Made by a program: the position numbers and the translations under genes. Below, piece by piece: positions 4,688-37,056 of a stretch of DNA of 64,000 bases. Source of the DNA: Bacillota bacterium (lineage in GTDB: Bacteria > Bacillota > Limnochordia > Limnochordales > ZCTH02-B6); assembly GCA_017656145.1 (NCBI GenBank), contig JACDOI010000002.1, forward strand, positions 1 to 64,000, given 5' to 3'. The stretch's first letter is position 1. Every line of letters begins with the position of its first letter. Below the pieces are notes generated by a model, which made no database searches, had not been told where the DNA came from, and saw nothing but the letters and a program-made list of their open reading frames with translations.

Positions 4688-7041
4688 CGCTGGCGCAATC
4701 CCGCTCCTACCGAGTGATCGGGACCCGGCCGGTTCGGCACGACGGCGTCGACAAGGTCACCGGCCGGGCCCAGTACGGCGCGGACGTGCGCCTGCCTGGA
4801 ATGCTGTACGGCTGCGTCGTCCGTAGCCCCTACCCCCACGCCCGGCTGCGCGCGATCGACACCAGCCGGGCCGCGGCCCATCCCGGAGTCAAGGCGGTCA
4901 TCACCGGAGCGGACATGCCTGCCATCGACACGAACGCGGTGGCCGACCTGGGCGAGGGGGCCATCGAGCTCAAATTCGCCAGCCTGCTGATCATGGCCCG
5001 GGACAAGGTGGTCTTTCGCGGCCAGCCGGTAGCCGCGGTGGCCGCGGTCAGCCCTCAGGCCGCCGCCGAGGCCGCCCGCCTCGTGGAGGTCGACTACGAA
5101 CCGTTGCCCGTCGTGACCGACGCGCTGGCCGCCATGGAGCCGGGATCGCCCCGCGTCCACGACGACCTGTACACCGTCGTCCCCGGGGGCAGCCGCCGGG
5201 ACTCGCCCAGCAACATCGCCTTGCACGTCCAGTACGAGCGGGGCGACGTGGAGGCGGGCTTTGCCGGCGCCGACGTGGTGGTGGAGCGGGAATTCCGCAC
5301 CGCGATGGTCCACCAGGGGTATATCGAACCGCAAAACGCCACCGCGGCCTGGGAGCCCGGCGGCCGGCTAACCGTGTGGACCAGCACCCAAGGCGCGTTC
5401 TCCGTCCGGCAGCAGCTGTCGGACTTGCTGCAGATTCCGGTGGGGCGGATCAAGGTGGTCCCGATGGAGATCGGCGGCGGGTTCGGCGGGAAGATCCAGG
5501 TTTACCTGGAGCCCCTCGCGGCTCTCTTGTCCCGCAAGGCGGGACGACCGGTGAAGATGTGGATGAGCCGGGCCGAAGTGTTCACCGCCACCGGTCCGGG
5601 ACCGGCAACGTACATCCGTCTCAAGATGGGCGTCACCCGCACCGGGGACTTGACCGCCGCGGCGATGCGGCTCGTGTACGATGCGGGCGCATTTCCCGGT
5701 TCGCCCGTCGGATCCGCGTGCATCACCGGATTGTCTCCTTACCGCATTCCGCATTTCCGCATCGACGGGTTCGACGTGGTGACCAACAAACCCCGGGTGC
5801 AGGCGTACCGGGCGCCGGGCGCGCCGCCGGCCGCGTTCGCAGTCGAAACGGTCCTCGATGAGCTGGCCGAAGCCATCGGGATGGATCCGATCGAGCTGCG
5901 CCTGCGCAACGCAGCGGCCGAAGGCGACCGGATGACCAACGGTGTCGCGTTCAACCGCATCGGCTTTAAGGAAGTGCTTGTGGCGGCCAAAAACCACCCG
6001 CACTACCGGGCCCCGCTCCCTCCGGGCGCCACAGGCCGGGGCGTGGCGGCCGGATTCTGGATGAACGGCCGCGGCACGTCCACCGTCCATCTAACCTTCA
6101 ATCCCGACGGCACGGTCAACTTGATCGAAGGCTCGACCGACATCGGTGGCAGCCGGGCGTCACTGGCCATGATCGTCGCGGAGGAGTTGGGGCTTGACGC
6201 GCACGATGTGAAGCCTGTCGTCGCGGACACCGATTCGGTAGGCCACACCGACGTCACCGGCGGAAGCCGGGTGACGTATTCGACGGGCGTCGCCTGCCAC
6301 CGGGCGGCCCTCGATGCCATCGCACAGCTGAAACCGCGCGCGGCCCAGCTGCTCGATGCCAATCCCGGAGATGTCGAGTTCGGGGGCGGAGAGTTTTGGG
6401 TGTCCAGTGAACCCCGGCGCCGCATTGGCATCAAAGAAGTCATCGCAAAGCTGGGCAAGACGGGCGGCCCCATCGTTGCCCGGGGCGTGTCCCGGGGCCT
6501 GGCGATGGCCCCCGGGTTCGGCGTGCACATTGCCGACGTGCGGGTTGATCCGGAAACCGGCAAGGTGGACGTCGTCCGCTACACGGCCGTGCAGGACGCG
6601 GGCAAAGCCATCCATCCGACCTACGTTGAGGGCCAGCTGCAGGGCGGCGCGGCCCAAGGCGTGGGCCTGGCGCTGTTTGAGGAATACGTGTTCGAAGACG
6701 GCATCCTGCGCAACCCCAGCTTCCTGGACTACCGGATGCCGACGGCGCTCGATTTGCCCATGATCGACACGGTCATCGTCGAGGTTCCGGCATCCGACGG
6801 TCCCTACGGGGTGCGAGGCGTCGGCGAGGTGCCCATTGTGCCGCCGGCAGCCGCCATCGCCAACGCGATCTACCGGGCCGCGGGCGTTCGGCTGCGGCAG
6901 CTGCCCATGACGCCGGAAAACGTGTGGCGGGCTTTAGCTGGGCGGGACGCGGCCTTGCCGAGCACGCCTAAAGCGGCGCCGGATGCAGCAATGGCGGCAA
7001 CAAAGGAACGCCGGGCGGAGCCGCCGGGGACCTCCGGCTAA
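4684..7041 (+). CDS. Xanthine dehydrogenase/aldehyde oxidase family molybdopterin-binding subunit
   Basis: GGGFGGK, AYRAPGAPPAAFAVE, GVRGVGEVPIVPPAAAIANAI motifs; ATGA overlap with the 2Fe-2S subunit gene. Confidence 0.92.
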   Translation: MTLAQSRSYRVIGTRPVRHDGVDKVTGRAQYGADVRLPGMLYGCVVRSPYPHARLRAIDTSRAAAHPGVKAVITGADMPAIDTNAVADLGEGAIELKFASLLIMARDKVVFRGQPVAAVAAVSPQAAAEAARLVEVDYEPLPVVTDALAAMEPGSPRVHDDLYTVVPGGSRRDSPSNIALHVQYERGDVEAGFAGADVVVEREFRTAMVHQGYIEPQNATAAWEPGGRLTVWTSTQGAFSVRQQLSDLLQIPVGRIKVVPMEIGGGFGGKIQVYLEPLAALLSRKAGRPVKMWMSRAEVFTATGPGPATYIRLKMGVTRTGDLTAAAMRLVYDAGAFPGSPVGSACITGLSPYRIPHFRIDGFDVVTNKPRVQAYRAPGAPPAAFAVETVLDELAEAIGMDPIELRLRNAAAEGDRMTNGVAFNRIGFKEVLVAAKNHPHYRAPLPPGATGRGVAAGFWMNGRGTSTVHLTFNPDGTVNLIEGSTDIGGSRASLAMIVAEELGLDAHDVKPVVADTDSVGHTDVTGGSRVTYSTGVACHRAALDAIAQLKPRAAQLLDANPGDVEFGGGEFWVSSEPRRRIGIKEVIAKLGKTGGPIVARGVSRGLAMAPGFGVHIADVRVDPETGKVDVVRYTAVQDAGKAIHPTYVEGQLQGGAAQGVGLALFEEYVFEDGILRNPSFLDYRMPTALDLPMIDTVIVEVPASDGPYGVRGVGEVPIVPPAAAIANAIYRAAGVRLRQLPMTPENVWRALAGRDAALPSTPKAAPDAAMAATKERRAEPPGTSG

Positions 7042-7089
7042 AGCGGTGCGGCTCTGGCGCAAGCGCGCATCAGGGGAGGTTCGACCGTT

Positions 7090-7431
7090 TTGCCGAGGAT
7101 CTGGGTTCCCAGTCCCATGCGGGACGCCGTAGGCGGCCGGGCCACCGTGGAAGTGGACGGTGAAACGGCCCGGGAAGCGCTGGAAGCCCTCATGGACCGC
7201 TTCCCCCAAGTCCGGGAGCGCCTGTTGGACGCCCGCGGCGCTCTCTCGCCCCACCTCGCGGTGCTGGTCGACGGAACCGAACTGGAAAGCCTCGACACCC
7301 CCCTCCGTCCCGACAGCGAGCTGGTCATCACCCCGGCGCTGGGGGGAGGGGTTTGCCCGGCGCCGTCCCCGGCACGCCTGCGGGCCCCGGCGGCTCGCCG
7401 GCCGGATCGACGGGCTCGTCGACGTCCCTGA
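7090..7431 (+). CDS. MoaD/ThiS-family ubiquitin-like protein with C-terminal extension
   Basis: Ubiquitin-like MoaD pattern ending VITPALGGG, followed by about 26 extra residues before the stop. Confidence 0.65.
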   Translation: MPRIWVPSPMRDAVGGRATVEVDGETAREALEALMDRFPQVRERLLDARGALSPHLAVLVDGTELESLDTPLRPDSELVITPALGGGVCPAPSPARLRAPAARRPDRRARRRP

Positions 7432-8086
7432 GCTCGCCGGCGTCGATGGGCAAGGTCCGCAGGGCCCGACCGAGACTGAGAAGCACCGCCCGGCCACCGC
7501 GGTCGCCCTCGAGCTCGAGGAACGCGGGCCACACCGGCCGCCGCACGACGCAGGGCGGGCCCGGCTTGCCCGGGCCGTAGAGGGCTGCGGCGGCCAAAAC
7601 GCCCGGAGTGAGGGCCAGTTGCGCGAGGCGGGCCACGGTGCGGGGCCGCACGAACGGTTGATCGGCGAGCAATACCGCGGCTGCCTGTTGCCCGCCGGCC
7701 ATGACCGCCCGGATCCCCGCAATAAGCGATGAGGCCTGGCCGGCCGCGTAGTCGGGGTTGTGCGCCAAGCGAACCCCGGGCAAGCCCGCGAGAACCGCCT
7801 CGACTTCCGGCGCGCCGTACCCGGTCACGACCCAAACGGGCCCAAGGCCGGCCGCAAGGCAAGTCGCGGCCACCCGGCGGACCATGGGCTCGCCGCCGCA
7901 CGGCATCACCTGCTTGAGCCGCCCCATCCGGGTCGCCCGGCCCGCCGCGAGAACGATCGCGGCCACCGGCAGCGGGGCGGGGTTCTGTTGTCCTCCGCTT
8001 GTTGCGCCTGGCGTCGCATTCATTTCCAACATCAAGTTCTCGATGAACCTCGCTCCGCCTGCCGACCCACCCATTCGTGCAGGCAT
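7328..8086 (-). CDS. MobA-like NTP transferase / molybdenum cofactor cytidylyltransferase (MocA-like)
   Basis: AAIVLAAGRATRMGRLKQVMPCGGEPMVRR, NPDYAAGQASSLIAGI, LLADQPFV motifs; exact start uncertain. Confidence 0.85.
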   Translation of the reverse strand: MPARMGGSAGGARFIENLMLEMNATPGATSGGQQNPAPLPVAAIVLAAGRATRMGRLKQVMPCGGEPMVRRVAATCLAAGLGPVWVVTGYGAPEVEAVLAGLPGVRLAHNPDYAAGQASSLIAGIRAVMAGGQQAAAVLLADQPFVRPRTVARLAQLALTPGVLAAAALYGPGKPGPPCVVRRPVWPAFLELEGDRGGRAVLLSLGRALRTLPIDAGELRDVDEPVDPAGEPPGPAGVPGTAPGKPLPPAPG

Positions 8087-8097
8087 GACTCAACAAC

Positions 8098-8127
8098 TTG
8101 ACTGTTTTGAGGAAATATCAGTATACT
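8098..8127 (+). promoter_or_regulatory. Predicted sigma70-type promoter with palindromic operator over the -10
   Basis: TTGACT - 18 bp - TATACT; perfect palindrome CAGTATACTG at 8119-8128; upstream of ABC transporter operon. Confidence 0.6.
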
Positions 8128-8234
8128 GTTTCCAGCCGACTTAATACTTGTCTTTTTACTAATATTGCGCGTCGGCTCGCCGGCCCGATGCAGTAGCCGG
8201 GGACCGCCTTGCCCGCGCCCAAGGAGGTTCGCCC

Positions 8235-9170
8235 GTGCCAAACACTGCCCAACGCACCGTCGCCGCGGTGGCCGCACCAAGGACGAAGCGCCGCCTTTTG
8301 GACCGGGACCGGTTCTTGGGCTCTCTTCTCCTGTCGCCGGCGGTGCTGTACATCGCGCTGCTTGTGGGGTTTCCATTTCTCTTCGCGATTTATCTCAGCT
8401 TGACCGACGCCACCGTGGGCCGTCCGGTGGGCGCGTTCATCGGCCTTGACAACTTCCGAGAAATCATCGAAAGCCGCGGGTTTCGCGCCGCCCTGCGCAA
8501 CACGTTCGTGTTCACCTTCGTGTCCCAGGCCGTCATCCTGGCCTTGGCCAACAGCCTCGCCCTGGCGCTGCAGCGGGACTTCCGGGGCAAGGGCCTCGTG
8601 CTGTTTCTCATCCTGCTGCCGTGGGTGGCGCCGGTTTCGCTCAGCACCATCGGCTGGCTGTGGATCTTCCACTCTCGCTTCAGCCTCATCGACTGGGTCT
8701 TGCGACAGCTTGGCCTTTTGGAAGGCAACCTTTTTTGGCTGGGCCGGCCGGATCTGGCCATGATCGCGATCATCGTCGTTCATGTGTGGCGCATGTTCCC
8801 GTTTTCCACGGTCATTCTCATGGCCGGCCACAGCGCCCTGCCCAAGGACGTGCTGGAGAGCGCCCAAGTGGACGGGGCCGGATTTTGGCGGCAGTTGTTC
8901 CAGATCCGGCTGCCGCTGCTTTTGCCCATCATGAGCGTGGCCGTCCTGTTCAGCACCGTGTTCACATTTGCAGACATGACGGTCGTGTACGTGCTCACCC
9001 GGGGCGGGCCGTTTGACACGACGCACGTGCTGTCGAGCCTGGCGTACTTCCGCGGCATCTTCGGCGGAAACTTGAGCATCGGCGCGGCCATTTCGCTGTT
9101 CCTCTTTCCCGTGCTGCTCATCGCCGCGGTGCTCATCCTGCGCCTGGCCCGGCGGACGGAGGTGACATAA
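8235..9170 (+). CDS. Carbohydrate ABC transporter permease (MalF/UgpA-type)
   Basis: Six TM segments and EAA-like loop (LESAQVDGAGFWRQLFQIRLPLLLPI). Confidence 0.9.
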   Translation: MPNTAQRTVAAVAAPRTKRRLLDRDRFLGSLLLSPAVLYIALLVGFPFLFAIYLSLTDATVGRPVGAFIGLDNFREIIESRGFRAALRNTFVFTFVSQAVILALANSLALALQRDFRGKGLVLFLILLPWVAPVSLSTIGWLWIFHSRFSLIDWVLRQLGLLEGNLFWLGRPDLAMIAIIVVHVWRMFPFSTVILMAGHSALPKDVLESAQVDGAGFWRQLFQIRLPLLLPIMSVAVLFSTVFTFADMTVVYVLTRGGPFDTTHVLSSLAYFRGIFGGNLSIGAAISLFLFPVLLIAAVLILRLARRTEVT

Positions 9171-28968: not shown

Positions 28969-29844
28969 TCAATGGCGCGGCAGCGCGTGCCGGGCTTGCC
29001 TGGACAAAGACAAACGCGGCGGTTGGCGGGACTTCCCGGCGGAAGCCAGCCGCTTCATCTTCTCGTAGAGCGCCTGCGTTTCCGGACTCGGGTACAGCCC
29101 AAACTCCTCGTACAGCAGCCGGGCGCACTGGCGGTACTGAACCGCGGCCTCGCCGTAGCGTCCTGCCCGGATAAGATAGGCGATGACGGCCTGGTGGAGC
29201 TCCTCCCGGCAAGGATCCCGCTTGAGAGCTGCCCGGCAGAGGCTGATGCTTCCGGTGTAATCGTTGTGCAGGCGTACCATGAGGGAAGACGCCCGCAGCA
29301 CGGCGCCAAAGTAGAGTTCGAGGAAATGTTCCCGCGGGCCGGCGGCCCAGTCCTGATAGGCGTCTTCCGGGCAAAAATCCCCCCGGTACAGGGACAGGGC
29401 TTGCCGATACAGCCGGCAAGCTTTTTCGTCGTCCCGACCCTCCGCCTCCTGGGCCTCGCGGCAGAGGCGCTCAAACTGCTCGATGTCCACCCAGCACCCG
29501 TCGCCGGTTTCAAACCAGTACAGCCCGGCCGAATGCTGGATGAACACTGGCCTGCGCGGGCTTGGGCCGTTGGCCCGGGAGCCGGGCTCGATCAACTGCC
29601 GCAGGAAGTAGACCACGGTGTGCAGATTGTGGCTGCCCTTCTCCGGGTCGTCGATTTCAGGCCACAGCAATTCGATGAGGACATCCTTCGGAACCCTCTG
29701 GCCCCTCCGGGATACCAGATACTTGAACAGCGTCAACGCTTTCCGCGACTTCCACGCGCGCAAGTGCAGCTCCTCGCCGTCCCGTTCCAGGTAGAACGGG
29801 CCCAGCAAGCGAACCCGCACAGCGCACTGATGCGGCTCCGGCAT
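28969..29844 (-). CDS. SARP/BTAD-family transcriptional activator
   Basis: Wing-HTH VRLLGPFYLERDGEELHLRAWKSRKALTLFKYLVSRRGQRVPKDVLIELLWPE plus bacterial transcriptional activation domain TPR region. Confidence 0.85.
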   Translation of the reverse strand: MPEPHQCAVRVRLLGPFYLERDGEELHLRAWKSRKALTLFKYLVSRRGQRVPKDVLIELLWPEIDDPEKGSHNLHTVVYFLRQLIEPGSRANGPSPRRPVFIQHSAGLYWFETGDGCWVDIEQFERLCREAQEAEGRDDEKACRLYRQALSLYRGDFCPEDAYQDWAAGPREHFLELYFGAVLRASSLMVRLHNDYTGSISLCRAALKRDPCREELHQAVIAYLIRAGRYGEAAVQYRQCARLLYEEFGLYPSPETQALYEKMKRLASAGKSRQPPRLSLSRQARHALPRH

Positions 29845-30037
29845 CGAAACACTCCTCCCTGCCCCGCGTCATGACGGCCGCTCGCCCAGAAACTTAATCG
29901 ATTGCCACATTATCGATTCAAGACAATCCGCAACAGAGTGTTGCCCCACTGGCGGGCGGGAGTTTTCCCCGCTGCCGGAGGGAAATCCCTCCTCTCCTAG
30001 GAAAGGAGCCGGCGAGAACCGCCTGCTACGGGCAGGG

Positions 30038-30238
30038 TCAATCCCTGTCGATGGCCGCATCGCCCCGCAGTGCATGTTCGTCAATGAACCGGACCACCTC
30101 CACGAAATTGCGAAACGTCCTTGCGGTTCCGCTTTGCACGTGCTGGATCCGCCCCCGCCAGTCACCGTCGGGCGTACGCAATACCCGGATGACAAAGGTG
30201 CTGTAGAAATTTCGCGATTTTGCGGTGGGCGAAGGCAT
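30038..30238 (-). CDS. Small conserved-looking hypothetical protein
   Basis: 66-aa ORF FVIRVLRTPDGDWRGRIQHVQSGTARTFRNFVEVVRFIDEH; co-directional, 33 bp after the barrel gene. Confidence 0.5.
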   Translation of the reverse strand: MPSPTAKSRNFYSTFVIRVLRTPDGDWRGRIQHVQSGTARTFRNFVEVVRFIDEHALRGDAAIDRD

Positions 30239-30271
30239 TCGGCGGCCCTCCCCCGGCAGCGTTTTATGGTT

Positions 30272-31132
30272 TCAGAAATAGAACGTGAATCCGATCACGA
30301 TCGCGCGCCCGCCCGCCTCGTCGTAGACATCCACGTCGAGGCGAAACGTTTCAAGCTGGAACCCAAGACCCGCATACGAAAAGGGGGTCTTGGAACCGCT
30401 TGCCAGATGCTGGCCGATGCGGGCGAGAATGTTGCCGAACCGGCCCTGCAAACCGACATGGAACAAGCCCTCGGCAAGCGGGTCTGACAGGTCGGAGTGC
30501 ACGTAGTCGGCCCCCAGGGTCAAGCGGCCCAAGTCCACGGCCAGGCCGACCGCGGCAGACAAAGGAAACTGATCGGCTCGCGCGCCGTTGCCCCATCGGA
30601 TCGCGTTGCGCACGACAGCTCCCAAAGTTACCCGCTCGCTGGCCTGCGCCTGCAGGCCGACATCCACCAGCCACGCGTCAACCTCGTCTCCGGAGCGGCC
30701 CGCGAGGACGCTGTATCTCAAGTTGATGCCCACGGCCGCACGTTCGCCCAAGTCCTGGGCTATCGAATACACGTACTGCTTCAACTCTCCCGTGCCGTCG
30801 GACATCTTGTAGTAGGCCAGCTGGCCGGAGCCGAGGCCCGTATCGGGCTCCAGGTAGTTCAACAGATGACCCTTCAGCGCCCAATCCGCCAGGGGGCTGA
30901 GCACCTGGGCCCGGACTACGAAGCGGTCAAGCCATCGCAGCGCGGCCGGGTTGGCGAACACGCCCGGCGAGTCGCCCATAACCGCCGTAAAACCGCCCCA
31001 TCGGGCAGGGACCAGCGCCTTGTCGGTCGGGCTGGCGAACGCGGCGCCGCTTGTAGCCGCCAAAACGATGGCGGCCGCCAGCGCCCAGCACAAGCCCGGT
31101 TTCGACATTCTTGCGGCACTAAACCGCCCCAT
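30272..31132 (-). CDS. Putative outer-membrane beta-barrel protein (PorV/PorQ-like)
   Basis: Signal peptide, alternating beta-strand pattern, C-terminal FTFYF (terminal aromatic, BAM-type signature); ASPTDKALVPARWGGFTAVMGDSPGVFANPAAL typical of OMP P1-like barrels. Confidence 0.65.
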   Translation of the reverse strand: MGRFSAARMSKPGLCWALAAAIVLAATSGAAFASPTDKALVPARWGGFTAVMGDSPGVFANPAALRWLDRFVVRAQVLSPLADWALKGHLLNYLEPDTGLGSGQLAYYKMSDGTGELKQYVYSIAQDLGERAAVGINLRYSVLAGRSGDEVDAWLVDVGLQAQASERVTLGAVVRNAIRWGNGARADQFPLSAAVGLAVDLGRLTLGADYVHSDLSDPLAEGLFHVGLQGRFGNILARIGQHLASGSKTPFSYAGLGFQLETFRLDVDVYDEAGGRAIVIGFTFYF

Positions 31133-31174
31133 CGTACCGTCCTCCCCGTACGCCCGGGCCCATAGGCCTGGGGC

Positions 31175-32413
31175 TTAGATGGTTTCCTGCAAAATGTGCG
31201 GCGTAATGAAAATCAGGACTTCGCTCTGTTCCGCGGTCGTGCGGGTGCTGCTGAACAACCGGCCGAAAATGGGCAGGTTCCCAAGGATCGGAACCTTTGA
31301 AGTGGTCTCCGTTTCGATCTCTTGCAACAGACCGCCGATGCCAAACGTCTCGCCGTCCCGCACCCGGACAGTGGTGCTCACTTCCCGCCGGCCGATGACC
31401 GGCAGGTCATCTTGTCCCTTCCCCTGAACGTCGCTGACGTCCGGCGCGATCTCAAGGACGATCACCCCATCGTCGGCGACGCGGGCGGTGATTTCCAAGG
31501 AGACGCCGGCCTCGATGGCTTCCAATCGGGTGACGGGCGATGTGTCCGTCCCCGTTACGATGCGGTAGTAGTTCATCTTGCCGATGAACAGCGTCGCCTT
31601 CTTTCCCTCCAAGGCTACCAGGGACGGATTGGCCCGGATTCGCGCGTGCCCGCGCTCGACCTCGGTGCGCAGTTGCATGAGGAAACGGTCAAGGCCGCCT
31701 GTCAACGAGTACCCGATGGTCCCCACGAGCTCGTTGAACGACACCTGCGTGCCCACCGCCCGCTCGTCCGCGCTGGCTTGCTCGGTCCAGCTCCAGTCAA
31801 GCCCCAGCGCTTTGCGCCCCTCATCGGTAATCTCCGTTACGAGCGCATCGATGCGGATTTGGTGAGGAGCAACGTCCAGCCGCCTGATGTCCGCCGCGAT
31901 GCGCTCGACGACGTCCGGAGCGCCCGAGACGATGACGCTGTTGGTCTGCGTCTCGGCACGGACCAGGTCCCGGAACGGTTCTGCCAGGAGCGACGGAACC
32001 TCATCGGCCGGCAAATGGTGCAATTTCACCCGTTCGGTGACGCTCAGCACGTGAAACAAGGGGCTGTCCGGCTCAACGGAACCCACGAGATAAAATCCGT
32101 CCATCCACCGGTATGTGTAGCCGTTGGGCAGCAAGACCCGGGACAGCGCTTCCGGAAGCGGCACGTCCTCAAGATCGATGGTGACAAACCCGGTCACCGT
32201 CGCGTCCGCCAAGATCGGAACGCCCGTCTCAAGGGAGATATCCGCGAGGACGTCTCCGATGAAGGTATCATAAAATGCGTTGTTCACCCGAACATCTACG
32301 GGTTCGGGCAAGCTGGCGCCCTCCGCGCCTTGGGCCAGCCCGGTCCCCGCGAGGGCGACGCTGATGGCCAAAACGATGAACGCCGTCCGCTCAATTTTCG
32401 CCTGCGACCTCAT
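31175..32413 (-). CDS. Type II/III secretion/PilQ-like secretin
   Basis: STN-like domain, N1-like repeat (TNSVIVSGAPDVVERIAADIRRLD), secretin core (PVIGRREVSTTVRVRDGETFGIGGLLQ...VPILGNLPIFGRLFSS...SEVLIFITPHIL). Confidence 0.9.
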   Translation of the reverse strand: MRSQAKIERTAFIVLAISVALAGTGLAQGAEGASLPEPVDVRVNNAFYDTFIGDVLADISLETGVPILADATVTGFVTIDLEDVPLPEALSRVLLPNGYTYRWMDGFYLVGSVEPDSPLFHVLSVTERVKLHHLPADEVPSLLAEPFRDLVRAETQTNSVIVSGAPDVVERIAADIRRLDVAPHQIRIDALVTEITDEGRKALGLDWSWTEQASADERAVGTQVSFNELVGTIGYSLTGGLDRFLMQLRTEVERGHARIRANPSLVALEGKKATLFIGKMNYYRIVTGTDTSPVTRLEAIEAGVSLEITARVADDGVIVLEIAPDVSDVQGKGQDDLPVIGRREVSTTVRVRDGETFGIGGLLQEIETETTSKVPILGNLPIFGRLFSSTRTTAEQSEVLIFITPHILQETI

Positions 32414-32436
32414 CAAGGTGATCTCCCCGCTTTCGG

Positions 32437-34179
32437 CTAATCGTCCGGATGACCCTCCTGAACCCGGCCGCTGTCGTCGACTCGGATGCCGATCTGTTGC
32501 CGCAGCACACTGCTGCCGTCGGGTTGCGGGATGTCTACCGCGATCCGGTACCATCCCGGCTGCAGACCGCTGTCGAATTCCACCAAGACGAACCGGCGGT
32601 TGGCTGGCAAGACCGGGGTGCCCGTTCGGACGTTCTGGCGCTCCACCGCCTCCCACTGGGCTTCCCGCACGATGATCAAATCGCCCACCTCTTCCTCCGT
32701 TCGCGGAACGTACCGCTGCAGGGTGGCAAACCCCGCGACCTCACCGTGCACGCTGCCCCCGTTGAAGAGGGTCATACCGACGCCGAGACGATTCGTGCCC
32801 GGAATCAATCCCCATTCCACCTCCTCTAGAACGAATTCCGGCACCGCCCCCTGCCCCAGCGTCAACATGGCCTCAACGTACGACTCACTGACGACGCTTT
32901 CGGACTCGCCGCCCGCGACCGGACGGCCCTGCACGCGTATCAGCGCGTAGCGTCCGCCGGCGGGTTGACCTTCCGGAACCCGAAAGCTCACCAGCACGTT
33001 GCGGCGCTGGCCGGGACGCAAGGTGAACTGAGCTGGTCTTACGGTGGTCCAAGGAGCGGCCGAGTACGGGCGTTGCTCACCACGGTCCGCCAATACCGGC
33101 TGTCCTCCCTCATCGTGTAGGAGATGCGCCACCGAAACGGAAAACGCGACGTCCACATTGTCGTCGTTGCGCACGGTGATGCTCGCGGTCCGGTGCCCGT
33201 GCCTTGGTATTTCAAGGAGAATTTGGCTAGGTGCCGTATGGAAGAGGACAGTTCTTCCGCCGATGACCGTCGCTTGACCGTTCGTATCGCCGGCGATGCT
33301 GAACGGCATCCGGGCCACCACAGGCCGGCCGGCACCGTAGTGCACTCGGACTTCCATCTCGTAATCGCCCGGCGGCAGCGCGCGCAGGACGGACACCGCG
33401 TCGACCGTGGCCCCGGGGATGATGACGCCGCGGCCCGAACCCAAGGGCACGCTGCGCACCCGGCGCCCGTCGCGGCCGCGCAAAATGAGCTCGCCGCGCG
33501 CGGCGACGTGGATGTCGCCGGCATTGGTCAATGTCGCGGCGAACATCGTCGTGTCCTGGCCAAATCGGGCGGCCACATCGGCGGATGCGGAAGCGGGCAC
33601 GACCCGCAGTTCGCTGATTTCCAACAGTTGCCGATGCTGGCGTCCCACCGTAATTTCCACCGCCACCACGATCTGCGGTGAGAAGTGAACCGCCAGCGGG
33701 ATGCCGGCCGGCCTGTCCGGCGGCACTGCCTCAATGACTAGGGCGGCAAAACCGGACGGCGGCGCATCCCGCGGCACCCGCACTTGACCGGCCAGGCGTG
33801 TCCAATCGCCCGGCCGCAATGTGAGCTCTTGGCGCTCCAATTCGATCCAAGACGACGCATCAAAGCGCCCGATACCGTCCGGAGCTGGCTCATAGCTCCC
33901 CCTGCGGGTTTCCCGCAACCCCGTAACGAACGCCCGGATGTCCACTGACTCCGAGTAGTGCTCGTTCACCAGCGTCACGTCAAACGAAAGGGTGGATCCT
34001 CGCTCGCCGCTCAACTGGACGAGCAGCGGGCTCACGGTGACGCTGGGGCCTTGCGCAAAGACTTCGGGAGCCGTCATGAGGCACACGGCCGCTGCGAACA
34101 CCGCCGCCAAAGCCGCAAGTCCCCGGGGCGTCGTAATCCCGTGATTTCGACCTTTCTCCATCGTTTTTCTCGCCACCAT
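32437..34179 (-). CDS. Secreted/periplasmic protein with two PapD-like/Ig-like domains
   Basis: N-terminal signal peptide (LAALAAVFAAAVCLMTAPEVFA); duplicated W...TLRPG...VRVP...PxGxxAL block. Confidence 0.6.
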   Translation of the reverse strand: MVARKTMEKGRNHGITTPRGLAALAAVFAAAVCLMTAPEVFAQGPSVTVSPLLVQLSGERGSTLSFDVTLVNEHYSESVDIRAFVTGLRETRRGSYEPAPDGIGRFDASSWIELERQELTLRPGDWTRLAGQVRVPRDAPPSGFAALVIEAVPPDRPAGIPLAVHFSPQIVVAVEITVGRQHRQLLEISELRVVPASASADVAARFGQDTTMFAATLTNAGDIHVAARGELILRGRDGRRVRSVPLGSGRGVIIPGATVDAVSVLRALPPGDYEMEVRVHYGAGRPVVARMPFSIAGDTNGQATVIGGRTVLFHTAPSQILLEIPRHGHRTASITVRNDDNVDVAFSVSVAHLLHDEGGQPVLADRGEQRPYSAAPWTTVRPAQFTLRPGQRRNVLVSFRVPEGQPAGGRYALIRVQGRPVAGGESESVVSESYVEAMLTLGQGAVPEFVLEEVEWGLIPGTNRLGVGMTLFNGGSVHGEVAGFATLQRYVPRTEEEVGDLIIVREAQWEAVERQNVRTGTPVLPANRRFVLVEFDSGLQPGWYRIAVDIPQPDGSSVLRQQIGIRVDDSGRVQEGHPDD

Positions 34180-34248
34180 CTGCCACCCCACACCGGATGC
34201 GGCGGATGCCTGACAATACCGGCAGCCCGCCGCACGAAAGCTTCGGTC

Positions 34249-34279
34249 CGGCAAGTCGCCCAGGGGGGTGCCGAACCCC
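34249..34279 (+). repeat. Left arm of inverted repeat flanking secreted-protein gene
   Basis: CGGCAAGTCGCCCAGGGGGGTGCCGAACCCC; about 28 of 30 positions match the reverse complement of 35161-35190, with one 1-nt gap. Confidence 0.8.
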
Positions 34280-34329
34280 TCGGCCGCGCACCGGATGTTA
34301 ACCGGTGAGCCTTTGATAGGCGCTAAGCG

Positions 34330-35088
34330 CTACTCTTCGAGGAACCCGCCGTCTTCCGGATCCTGCCACTCCGCCAGGTTTTGAAGGGCGAGCCGCACAG
34401 ACCCCACCGAGAAGTAATCCGAGACCGAGTTGGAGTTCCCGACCTCGATCATCTCCCACAGCGTAAATTCCTGTCCGTAGTGCAGATCGCTTGAGTGGGT
34501 GATGGATTTCTCGTACAGAGCGCCGTTTGTCTCGTCGATGGTCCCCCGGCCCCACGATTCGCCCGGGTTCGGCGGGGTGGTGGGGGAGACATAGCCGTCG
34601 GAGATATACGCCCACTTGGCGATGGTAGTGGTGTAGCCGTGGTCATCGGGATAGCCGGGCAGGTCGTCAACGAATTGATCTTCGGCGTCGGGTATCCACA
34701 CCTTCAGCATCACATCGCTGTTGCTGGCGACAGTGATCCTGACGGAGTCCGACGCGTACTTGCCCGGCTTGAGAACTTCCCAGTACTTGTAGTTGCTGCT
34801 CAGCGTCAGCTGACCCCACTGCCCGACAGAGATGTGGTTGGCAAACGGCAGTTCCAGGCACGGTCCGTTGCAGGACGTGGTGAGTGATCCCAACTCCTCC
34901 GAGATGACATTGAAGCTGCGGGCTAGCGAAGCAGCTTCCCAGACGTTGTTCTCCGCGTCGTACTGGTATGTGGGCGCTGGGACTCCACTCGCCTTCGGGT
35001 CTTCCAGCATCCTTTCGTCCGCCTCTGCGAAGCCGACGCTGGCAAGGGCCAATACGGCCGCCAACGCCAACAACGACCGGATCTTCAT
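34330..35088 (-). CDS. Putative secreted surface/fibre subunit A
   Basis: Signal peptide MKIRSLLALAAVLALASVGFAEA; YKYWEVLKPGKYASDSVRITVASNSDV; C-terminal LWEMIEVGNSNSVSDYFSVGSVRLAL. Confidence 0.6.
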   Translation of the reverse strand: MKIRSLLALAAVLALASVGFAEADERMLEDPKASGVPAPTYQYDAENNVWEAASLARSFNVISEELGSLTTSCNGPCLELPFANHISVGQWGQLTLSSNYKYWEVLKPGKYASDSVRITVASNSDVMLKVWIPDAEDQFVDDLPGYPDDHGYTTTIAKWAYISDGYVSPTTPPNPGESWGRGTIDETNGALYEKSITHSSDLHYGQEFTLWEMIEVGNSNSVSDYFSVGSVRLALQNLAEWQDPEDGGFLEE

Positions 35089-35160
35089 CCTCACTTTCCT
35101 CCTCCTTAATCGGAGCGCGGTCTTGTGTGCCGCTCCGCGTACTCGCACTCCTCAGCGTTC

Positions 35161-35190
35161 AGGGTTCGGCACCCCCCTCGGCGCTTGCCG
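35161..35190 (-). repeat. Right arm of inverted repeat flanking secreted-protein gene
   Basis: Reverse complement CGGCAAGCGCCGAGGGGGGTGCCGAACCCT matches the left arm at 34249-34279. Confidence 0.8.
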
Positions 35191-35228
35191 AATCACAAGG
35201 CGCATCCCGTGACTCCGCTCTTGTCCAG

Positions 35229-36167
35229 TCACGTCCGCTTGCGGCAGACCGGGATAACCACCACCTTTCCGTGACCGACGTAGTCGGACGTTTGGTGCTG
35301 GACGCCGACGTTTAGCCGGTTCCAGACGACGATCTCTTCCCCGGCCAGGACGTCCTCCAAAAAGAGGCTCAAGGTCAGAGTGTTGAACTCCTCAACCGGC
35401 ATCCAGCCCAATCCCGACTCAACGTCGTCCAATGTCCGACCGATCCCGTATGAGATCTCAATGGGGGGAGCGCCCGGGTCGGCGACGTAGCGCGCGTCGG
35501 TAAAGTCCTTGAAGGCGACGATGGCGGGAGCCGTGCCGTGCACCCGGAATCGGAACGCCTCGGCGGCATAGATTCCAGGCTTGAGGATGTGCCAGTAAGA
35601 GATGGACGTCAGCGAGCCCTCAGCCATGCACCGGCAGGTGGCCGGACCCGAAACCCGTCCGGTGTCGGATCGGGGGCCAGCCTTGACGCCGACTTGAAGG
35701 TCGTCGACGACCGGCCACTGGCCCTGGAGGGTGAACTCGAACAAGACACCCATCGAGTTGGTCTTATCCACCTCGACCTCGAACTTGATTCCGTGGACTC
35801 GAGTCGTCGGATCCGTGCCTATCTCGTATTTGCGCCTGCCGTGGTTGTAGGGAAGCTCTCGCCAAACGCCTTCATCGACGACCATGTAGCGAACAGAAAC
35901 GATGGAACGCTTGTCGACGCACAATTCAAGGGTCCAATGGCTTAGGTCCCGGAACTCGCGCCCGTCCTTGCCCGGACCTTGCACCAGGTACGTCCATGTG
36001 GACTGACCGGGTACCGAGTTGTCGATGAAGTGCAGGCTCACCGTGAACCCCAGCAACGAGTCGGGCTCAGCCGCGTGGACCAGGCGACCCCGGGCGTCCA
36101 TCCCAGCAAGGCAAGCCAAAAGGCCCATCCATACAACCCATCGAAACAGCCGTCTGCCAAAACCCAT
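35229..36167 (-). CDS. Putative secreted surface/fibre subunit B (related to subunit A)
   Basis: Signal peptide; WTYLVQGPGKDGREFRDLSHWTLELC; ISYWHILKPGIYAAEAFRFRV; C-terminal VWNRLNVGVQHQTSDYVGHGKVVV. Confidence 0.6.
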   Translation of the reverse strand: MGFGRRLFRWVVWMGLLACLAGMDARGRLVHAAEPDSLLGFTVSLHFIDNSVPGQSTWTYLVQGPGKDGREFRDLSHWTLELCVDKRSIVSVRYMVVDEGVWRELPYNHGRRKYEIGTDPTTRVHGIKFEVEVDKTNSMGVLFEFTLQGQWPVVDDLQVGVKAGPRSDTGRVSGPATCRCMAEGSLTSISYWHILKPGIYAAEAFRFRVHGTAPAIVAFKDFTDARYVADPGAPPIEISYGIGRTLDDVESGLGWMPVEEFNTLTLSLFLEDVLAGEEIVVWNRLNVGVQHQTSDYVGHGKVVVIPVCRKRT

Positions 36168-36461: not shown

Positions 36462-36800
36462 ATGATGTGGCGGAAGGTTATCGCTGCGTCGCTCATCGTG
36501 TTGATCGCGACGGCTGCGCCCACGCAAGCCCTAGCCGGTGCCGCCCGAGCCGAAGCAGCCCAACGGCCTCCGGCGGCCCTGGTCTTGCCCCAGGGAGCGG
36601 AACTGGACGAGGAGGAACTGGACCAAGTCCAAGGCAAATTCTTCAAAACCGTTCTGGTCGGGGCGGTTTCCGGAGTCGTCGTCTACTCCGCCGGCAAGCT
36701 GTACGACCGGCTGACCACCGGCAGGTGGTCGTGGAGTTGGCGCGAGGCGGGCCGCGCAGCGTTCACGGGTGCCGTTGCCGGCTTCATGGGCCGTTGGTAG
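36462..36800 (+). CDS. Putative secreted peptide with bacteriocin-like leader motif and Gly-zipper C-terminus
   Basis: Hydrophobic N-terminus MMWRKVIAASLIVLIATAAPTQALA, then ELDEEELDQVQGKFF, then VGAVSGVVVYSAGKLYDRLTTGRWSWSWREAGRAAFTGAVAGFMGRW. Confidence 0.55.
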   Translation: MMWRKVIAASLIVLIATAAPTQALAGAARAEAAQRPPAALVLPQGAELDEEELDQVQGKFFKTVLVGAVSGVVVYSAGKLYDRLTTGRWSWSWREAGRAAFTGAVAGFMGRW

Positions 36801-36891: not shown

Positions 36892-37056
36892 ATGAACTGG
36901 CGCAAGGATTTAGTCCGTGCGGCTCTGTTTGCGCTGGTGTTCGCGCTGTTGGGCCATGTCGTGGTCCCTATGCCGCTGCCCCGGGCCCTGGCGAGCGGCA
37001 TCATGGCCGGCATCGTCTGGGTGATCCTCGGCCATTGGGCGCGCCTGTTCCGTTGA
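36892..37056 (+). CDS. Small two-TM hypothetical protein
   Basis: MNWRKDLVRAALFALVFALLGHVVVPMPLPRALASGIMAGIVWVILGHWARLFR; directly downstream of the 36462 peptide. Confidence 0.45.
   Translation: MNWRKDLVRAALFALVFALLGHVVVPMPLPRALASGIMAGIVWVILGHWARLFR

Follow-up and report, generated by a model that had tools for sequence, protein, structure and literature searches.

A recurring locus of pilin-like secreted proteins, a tandem Ig protein and a dedicated secretin: a candidate surface-fibre pathway in diderm Bacillota

A 64,000-nucleotide (nt) stretch of a Bacillota bacterium of the order Limnochordales (assembly GCA_017656145.1, contig JACDOI010000002.1, positions 1 to 64,000; hereafter the window) carries seven co-directional genes, all on the minus strand, at 28969-36167. 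They encode a two-domain and a single-domain secreted protein, a tandem immunoglobulin-like (Ig) protein, a secretin, a small outer-membrane barrel, a protein of 66 amino acids (aa) and a Streptomyces antibiotic regulatory protein (SARP) (Table 1). Comparison of sequences supports the view that the locus encodes a surface-export or fibre system of diderm Bacillota, and not a type II secretion system (T2SS) or a type IV pilus (T4P). With moderate confidence, we read it as a pathway for a donor-strand surface fibre that carries a tip subunit, is served by a tandem partner in the periplasm and exits through a dedicated secretin. All seven genes of the initial annotation were present, with refined starts. 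The genome (G000) has a size of 2.57 Mb and is 98.95% complete, and its order is represented by 14 genomes in the comparison set.

Relatives were found by tblastn and blastp searches with the seven proteins, and their loci were fetched and read in six frames. A block of two-domain protein, single-domain protein, tandem Ig protein and secretin was found in this order in G010, G008, G006, G007, G005 and G004, and the small barrel followed the secretin in these relatives wherever the contig continued. With the tandem Ig profile, matches were obtained in 58 of 73 genomes in a search of the class and in 76 of 398 in a sample of the phylum, counts that take in single-unit Ig proteins. The tandem Ig-secretin pair was carried by all of the loci fetched from the phylum search (20/20). 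A secretin gene lay on the same strand in the locus for 54 of the 57 full-length tandem Ig genes, within 300 base pairs in 42 of these, and the three loci without a secretin were all near contig ends. Loci entered this count through their match to the Ig profile, irrespective of any secretin, although secretin-linked loci had supplied the first version of that profile. As an internal control, five genes for single-unit Ig proteins (about 250 aa matched) had no secretin. The co-occurrence of the genes in related genomes, on which the proposal of a common system had been made to depend, was thus borne out as a recurring unit (hereafter the module) across diderm Bacillota. Five of the seven genes form the conserved core of this unit, and the 66-aa gene lies outside it.

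The loci were of two types. Those of type 1 resemble the window, and their order of subunit, tandem Ig protein and secretin is constant. Those of type 2 encode several secreted subunits (150-240 aa), together with a tandem Ig protein (about 510 aa), a secretin (about 400 aa) and a protein of 400-540 aa, which in some loci has a barrel-like end; a SARP of about 400 aa is often present. Omp85 was found in 37/37 genomes with the module and in 3/43 without it (raw counts, uncorrected for the kinship of the genomes). G000 also has Omp85, in agreement with the diderm host predicted by the initial annotation, and the diderm character of this genome is supported at the level of sequence. Cultivated Limnochordales have been described as diderm, and three closed genomes are available, those of Limnochorda pilosa, Geochorda and Carboxydochorda (PMC11456536). 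Three genomes of the order in our set consist of a single contig (G005, G007 and G008), and all of them carry the module. Since the closed genomes and the single-contig module genomes are equal in number, cultured hosts of the module probably exist.

In type II, III and IV machines and in filamentous phage the outer pore is a secretin, and all secretin systems known to us have inner-membrane parts. The window secretin matched the Pfam Secretin family (1.6e-43) together with Secretin_N and STN, and scored 144.6 bits with the SctC equivalog of type III secretion, below its cut-off of 238.45. It is the sole secretin of G000. No match to the GspE/PilB ATPase family (PF00437) was above the cut-off in G000, G007 or G008 (best match in G000, 19.3 bits; cut-off, 24.9), and no GspF/PilC platform protein (PF00482) was found in these three genomes. 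Exactly one secretin, that of the module, and no PF00482 protein were found in seven genomes (G000, G007, G019, G046, G047, G111 and G222), among which G007 is a single-contig genome. Neither a prepilin peptidase nor type IV pilins were seen at the locus, for which no genome-wide search was made. In a tree of 80 secretins, the 54 labelled module secretins and that of locus L057 formed one group (Shimodaira-Hasegawa-like approximate likelihood ratio test, 98), separate from the T4P-linked secretins of the same genomes. The earlier judgement that this is not a standard T2SS or T4P locus is consistent with these results, and the check for T2SS or T4P parts elsewhere that might use the window secretin returned no platform protein and no ATPase above the cut-off in G000. 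G008 has no platform, yet four secretins; two of them adjoin proteins of 1575 aa and 1315 aa (loci L055 and L056) and fall outside the module clade. A secretin scan of a collection of genome contigs gave one unrelated Methylococcaceae match, beside type II/IV-like genes.

The tandem Ig protein is a true duplication. Its two halves align to each other (hhalign 99.9%, E 3e-33), and its AlphaFold model shows four Ig-like domains with a predicted local distance difference test score (pLDDT) of 89. The closest bacterial folds in the PDB were WxLIP and the fimbrial chaperone CfaA; the latter matched with a template modelling score (TM-score) by target of 0.58 (E 7e-8), in keeping with a two-Ig chaperone fold. 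At the level of sequence profiles, the match to the WxLIP structure was significant (4.4e-8) and that to CfaA was not (0.26). Matches to WxLIP_PGBD were found in 9 of 31 members (best 1.9e-5), and the window's protein by itself gave none. No hydrophobic helix, and hence no C-terminal transmembrane helix, was found past the signal peptide. The top Foldseek matches, ciliary Ig proteins and transglutaminases, were dropped (TM <0.3) because they are generic Ig-chain matches. The duplication noted in the initial annotation thus stands; its description as PapD-like is corrected in that WxLIP is nearest by sequence and CfaA second.

The two secreted proteins share a YWxxLKPG domain, which confirms the relationship first suggested for them. 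In relatives of the two-domain protein the C-terminal subunit domain is kept and the N-terminal parts are very different in length; we propose that this variable region before a subunit domain is a tip-adhesin-like arrangement. The AlphaFold model of the 252-aa protein is a beta sandwich of moderate confidence (pLDDT 75). Its top Foldseek matches were mostly cannulae, PapG, FimG, Csu and Caf1 pilins and TasA, with E-values of 2e-3 to 0.1 for the donor-strand pilins. The profiles of the type-1 subunit and of the barrel matched no sequence in the PDB. The type-2 subunit profile matched the CsuE pilin domain (4.5e-4), and most type-2 subunits terminate in a strand like A-G-x-Y-x-x-x-x-T-V-T-V. 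Subunits of the two types are related (hhalign 97.9%), in an alignment that is partly signal peptide. No WxL domain was matched in the subunits.

The small barrel with its FTFYF end, which had been annotated only in general terms, can be refined to PorV-like on the basis of a weak family match (1.8e-4), found also in two other module barrels (1.1e-8 and 3.1e-5). The scores (21.2 and 35 bits) were below the PorV/PorQ cut-off of 90 for type IX secretion. An usher (PF00577) was found in 0/39 module genomes, with the E. coli positive control detected, and an usher hidden elsewhere in the genome was rejected on this count.

Our inferences on chaperone action, polymer formation, passage through the secretin, driving force and regulation are as follows. 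Sec would bring the single-domain major subunit and the two-domain tip or adhesin protein into the periplasm. The tandem Ig protein would hold them there, probably completing an unfinished beta sandwich by a strand in the manner of PapD-type chaperones and WxLIP; in a published AlphaFold2 complex, the WxL sandwich is completed by a WxLIP strand (PMC10599100). Donor-strand exchange would then join the subunits into a polymer, and either the fibre or its subunits would exit via the dedicated secretin, which would occupy the place of the usher of chaperone-usher pili. The PorV-like barrel may work at the outer membrane next to the secretin, and the genes would be turned on by the SARP or, in relatives, by a response regulator. 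Because polymerisation itself would drive outward growth, the proposal needs neither an ATPase nor an inner-membrane platform.

The locus resembles chaperone-usher pili (type 1, P, Csu and CFA/I) in its gene logic, with a putative major subunit, a putative two-domain tip, a two-Ig periplasmic protein and an outer-membrane pore, as well as in the absence of an ATPase and probably in the subunit folds. It differs from them in that the pore is a secretin and not an usher, the two-Ig protein is duplicated in tandem and lacks a PapD_N match, and a PorV-like barrel is additional. The subunit also shows a weak structural match to the TasA biofilm fibre and archaeal cannulae, which are donor-strand fibres of secreted beta-sandwich subunits, as proposed here for the locus. 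TasA, in contrast, has TapA/SipW and no outer-membrane pore, and the locus subunit has no sequence match to it.

Several facts weigh against a donor-strand fibre. The 252-aa subunit model is of moderate confidence (pLDDT 75), none of its Foldseek matches reached an E-value of 0.001, its TM-scores by target were at most 0.54 among the matches listed, and a donor strand was not identified. PapD_N was unmatched in all 31 tandem Ig members, whose nearest relative, WxLIP, is a surface protein rather than a chaperone. The barrel is poorly conserved, and a different protein of 400-540 aa stands in its place in type-2 loci. Pilus secretins are known to us with inner-membrane machines, and we know of no precedent for a machine-free secretin in a pilus.

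The main alternative is a surface coat or surface layer (S-layer), in which the secretin would export folded subunits singly, a sheet or matrix would form on the outer membrane, and the tandem Ig protein would be an exported anchor or linker like WxLIP and not a chaperone. WxLIP is nearest by sequence to the tandem protein, and a small subunit, a large subunit sharing its C-terminal domain and a two-Ig protein make up the same trio as the WxL cluster of monoderm Bacillota (PMC10599100). An S-layer is present on Limnochordales strain L945, though its gene was not found (PMC11456536). The subunit fold, however, matches chiefly subunits of linear fibres, and the locus differs from the WxL/WxLIP cluster in having an outer membrane, a secretin, a barrel and two Ig units in tandem, and in lacking both the WxL domain and a transmembrane anchor on the tandem protein. 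A coat of this kind seems rather unlikely, though it deserves consideration. It appears improbable that the secretin is a general exit for various periplasmic proteins unrelated to one another, with the listed subunits as only part of the cargo. Folded proteins can pass secretins, and type-2 loci contain several different small secreted proteins, but the cargo genes of the loci belong to one domain family and the gene order of type 1 is constant.

It might also be supposed that the secretin serves a conventional T4P or T2SS with its parts elsewhere and has nothing to do with the surface proteins encoded beside it. Its secretin domain is genuine, with the STN and N domains of such systems, and T4P genes occur in some module genomes. 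Against this, no platform protein and no ATPase above the cut-off were found in G000, G007 or G008, and G000 has no linked pilins; G004 and G005 have a complete-looking T4P locus elsewhere with its own secretin (L060); the clades are separate; and the module secretin is strictly linked to the tandem Ig gene. A T2SS or T4P home for this secretin was ruled out on these grounds, and the explanation is largely refuted and highly improbable. A donor-strand fibre pathway remains our preferred reading of the locus.

The activator identified in the initial annotation is a SARP by its BTAD match (1.8e-22), but it is not a fixed member of the unit. SARP genes were found in 14 loci, in 13 of them co-directional with the tandem Ig gene, and in relatives from the window's order their place is taken by response regulators and histidine kinases; SARP and response regulator are interchangeable. 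The membership of the 66-aa gene is doubtful because its protein had no relative in the loci examined, and it may be no part of the locus.

A 22-nt inverted repeat (21/22 matching) encloses the major subunit gene alone, and its core has no further mismatch-free copy in G000. Brackets with matched arms were found in three other loci, and a weaker one in a fourth (Table 1). In most of the remaining type-1 loci, a strong stem-loop lies directly 3' of the major subunit gene. The repeat could serve either inversion of the segment (phase variation) or pairing of RNA ends that stabilises the major-subunit message. An inverted copy of the bracketed segment was not seen, and no recombinase adjoining the locus was identified, although no systematic search for one was made. 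An Rfam search of the window gave no match.

The start of the 252-aa protein was reset to the ATG with AGGAGGAGG, since the 272-aa open reading frame begins too early, and that of the secretin to give 412 aa, since the 493-aa frame begins within the preceding gene. The intergenic gaps along the seven genes, from 36167 to 28969, are 140, 168, 23, 42, 33 and 193 nt. Small divergent upstream genes on the plus strand encode a protein of 112 aa whose start resembles a signal peptide (36462-36800) and a 54-aa hydrophobic protein (36892-37056).

Table 1. Features of the locus and their proposed roles (window positions).
Feature	Coordinates	Strand	Description
Two-domain secreted protein, 312 aa	35229..36167	-	Variable N-terminal domain and C-terminal LKPG (pilin-like) domain; proposed tip/adhesin subunit
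Single-domain secreted protein, 252 aa	34330..35088	-	AlphaFold beta sandwich with Foldseek matches; proposed major subunit
Tandem Ig protein, 574 aa	32437..34161	-	Two PapD/WxLIP-like units, signal peptide; proposed periplasmic subunit partner
Minimal secretin, 412 aa	31175..32413	-	STN, Secretin_N and secretin domain; without C-terminal S domain
Small outer-membrane barrel	30272..31132	-	PorV-like; C-terminal end FTFYF
66-aa protein	30038..30238	-	Not conserved; membership doubtful
SARP/BTAD transcriptional activator	28969..29844	-	BTAD match; proposed regulator
22-nt inverted repeat, 5' arm	35162..35183	no strand	Equivalents in L091, L160 and L164; weaker in L015
22-nt inverted repeat, 3' arm	34257..34278	no strand	Pair of arms brackets the major subunit gene only

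Variants of the module were also observed. G242 and G266 have two modules side by side (L157 and L158), of which the second secretin is short and much diverged. At L057 (G009), 6999-8606 contains a truncated subunit and a truncated secretin with no tandem Ig gene between them, by deletion or an assembly join; the subunit genes and the barrel are retained. At L162 (4244-5809), a 521-aa protein beside the secretin has secretin-like N domains, no secretin pore and then a barrel-like half. A second locus of G000 (L110, contig C28, 3277-7877), which has no secretin, encodes a 183-aa pilin-like protein, a 273-aa single-unit Ig protein and a 1072-aa protein with an FlgD_ig domain and a barrel-like C-terminal half. 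Relatives of L110 were found in L024 and in L025, which is cut at a contig end, and L022 and L023 encode partners of 964 and 706 aa with SdrD-like repeats.

We consider the locus to be novel at the level of the whole system, on the basis of the failed family-membership tests and a literature search. In the open-access literature, no paper was found that links a secretin to PapD-like proteins in Bacillota or DUF4402 to chaperones. We tentatively raise the idea, which we hold to be doubtful, that early diderm Bacillota already had an usher-less chaperone-secretin pilus and that the monoderm WxL/WxLIP system is its relative, which persisted when the outer membrane was lost. If this is true, the locus connects two surface systems that have been considered unrelated. 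A conserved secretin that is specific to a PapD/WxLIP-like partner and to pilin-like subunits, and that works with no inner-membrane machine, would, if true, represent a new class of surface-fibre pathway. The module is widespread in diderm Bacillota and offers a testable marker for losses in the diderm-to-monoderm transition.

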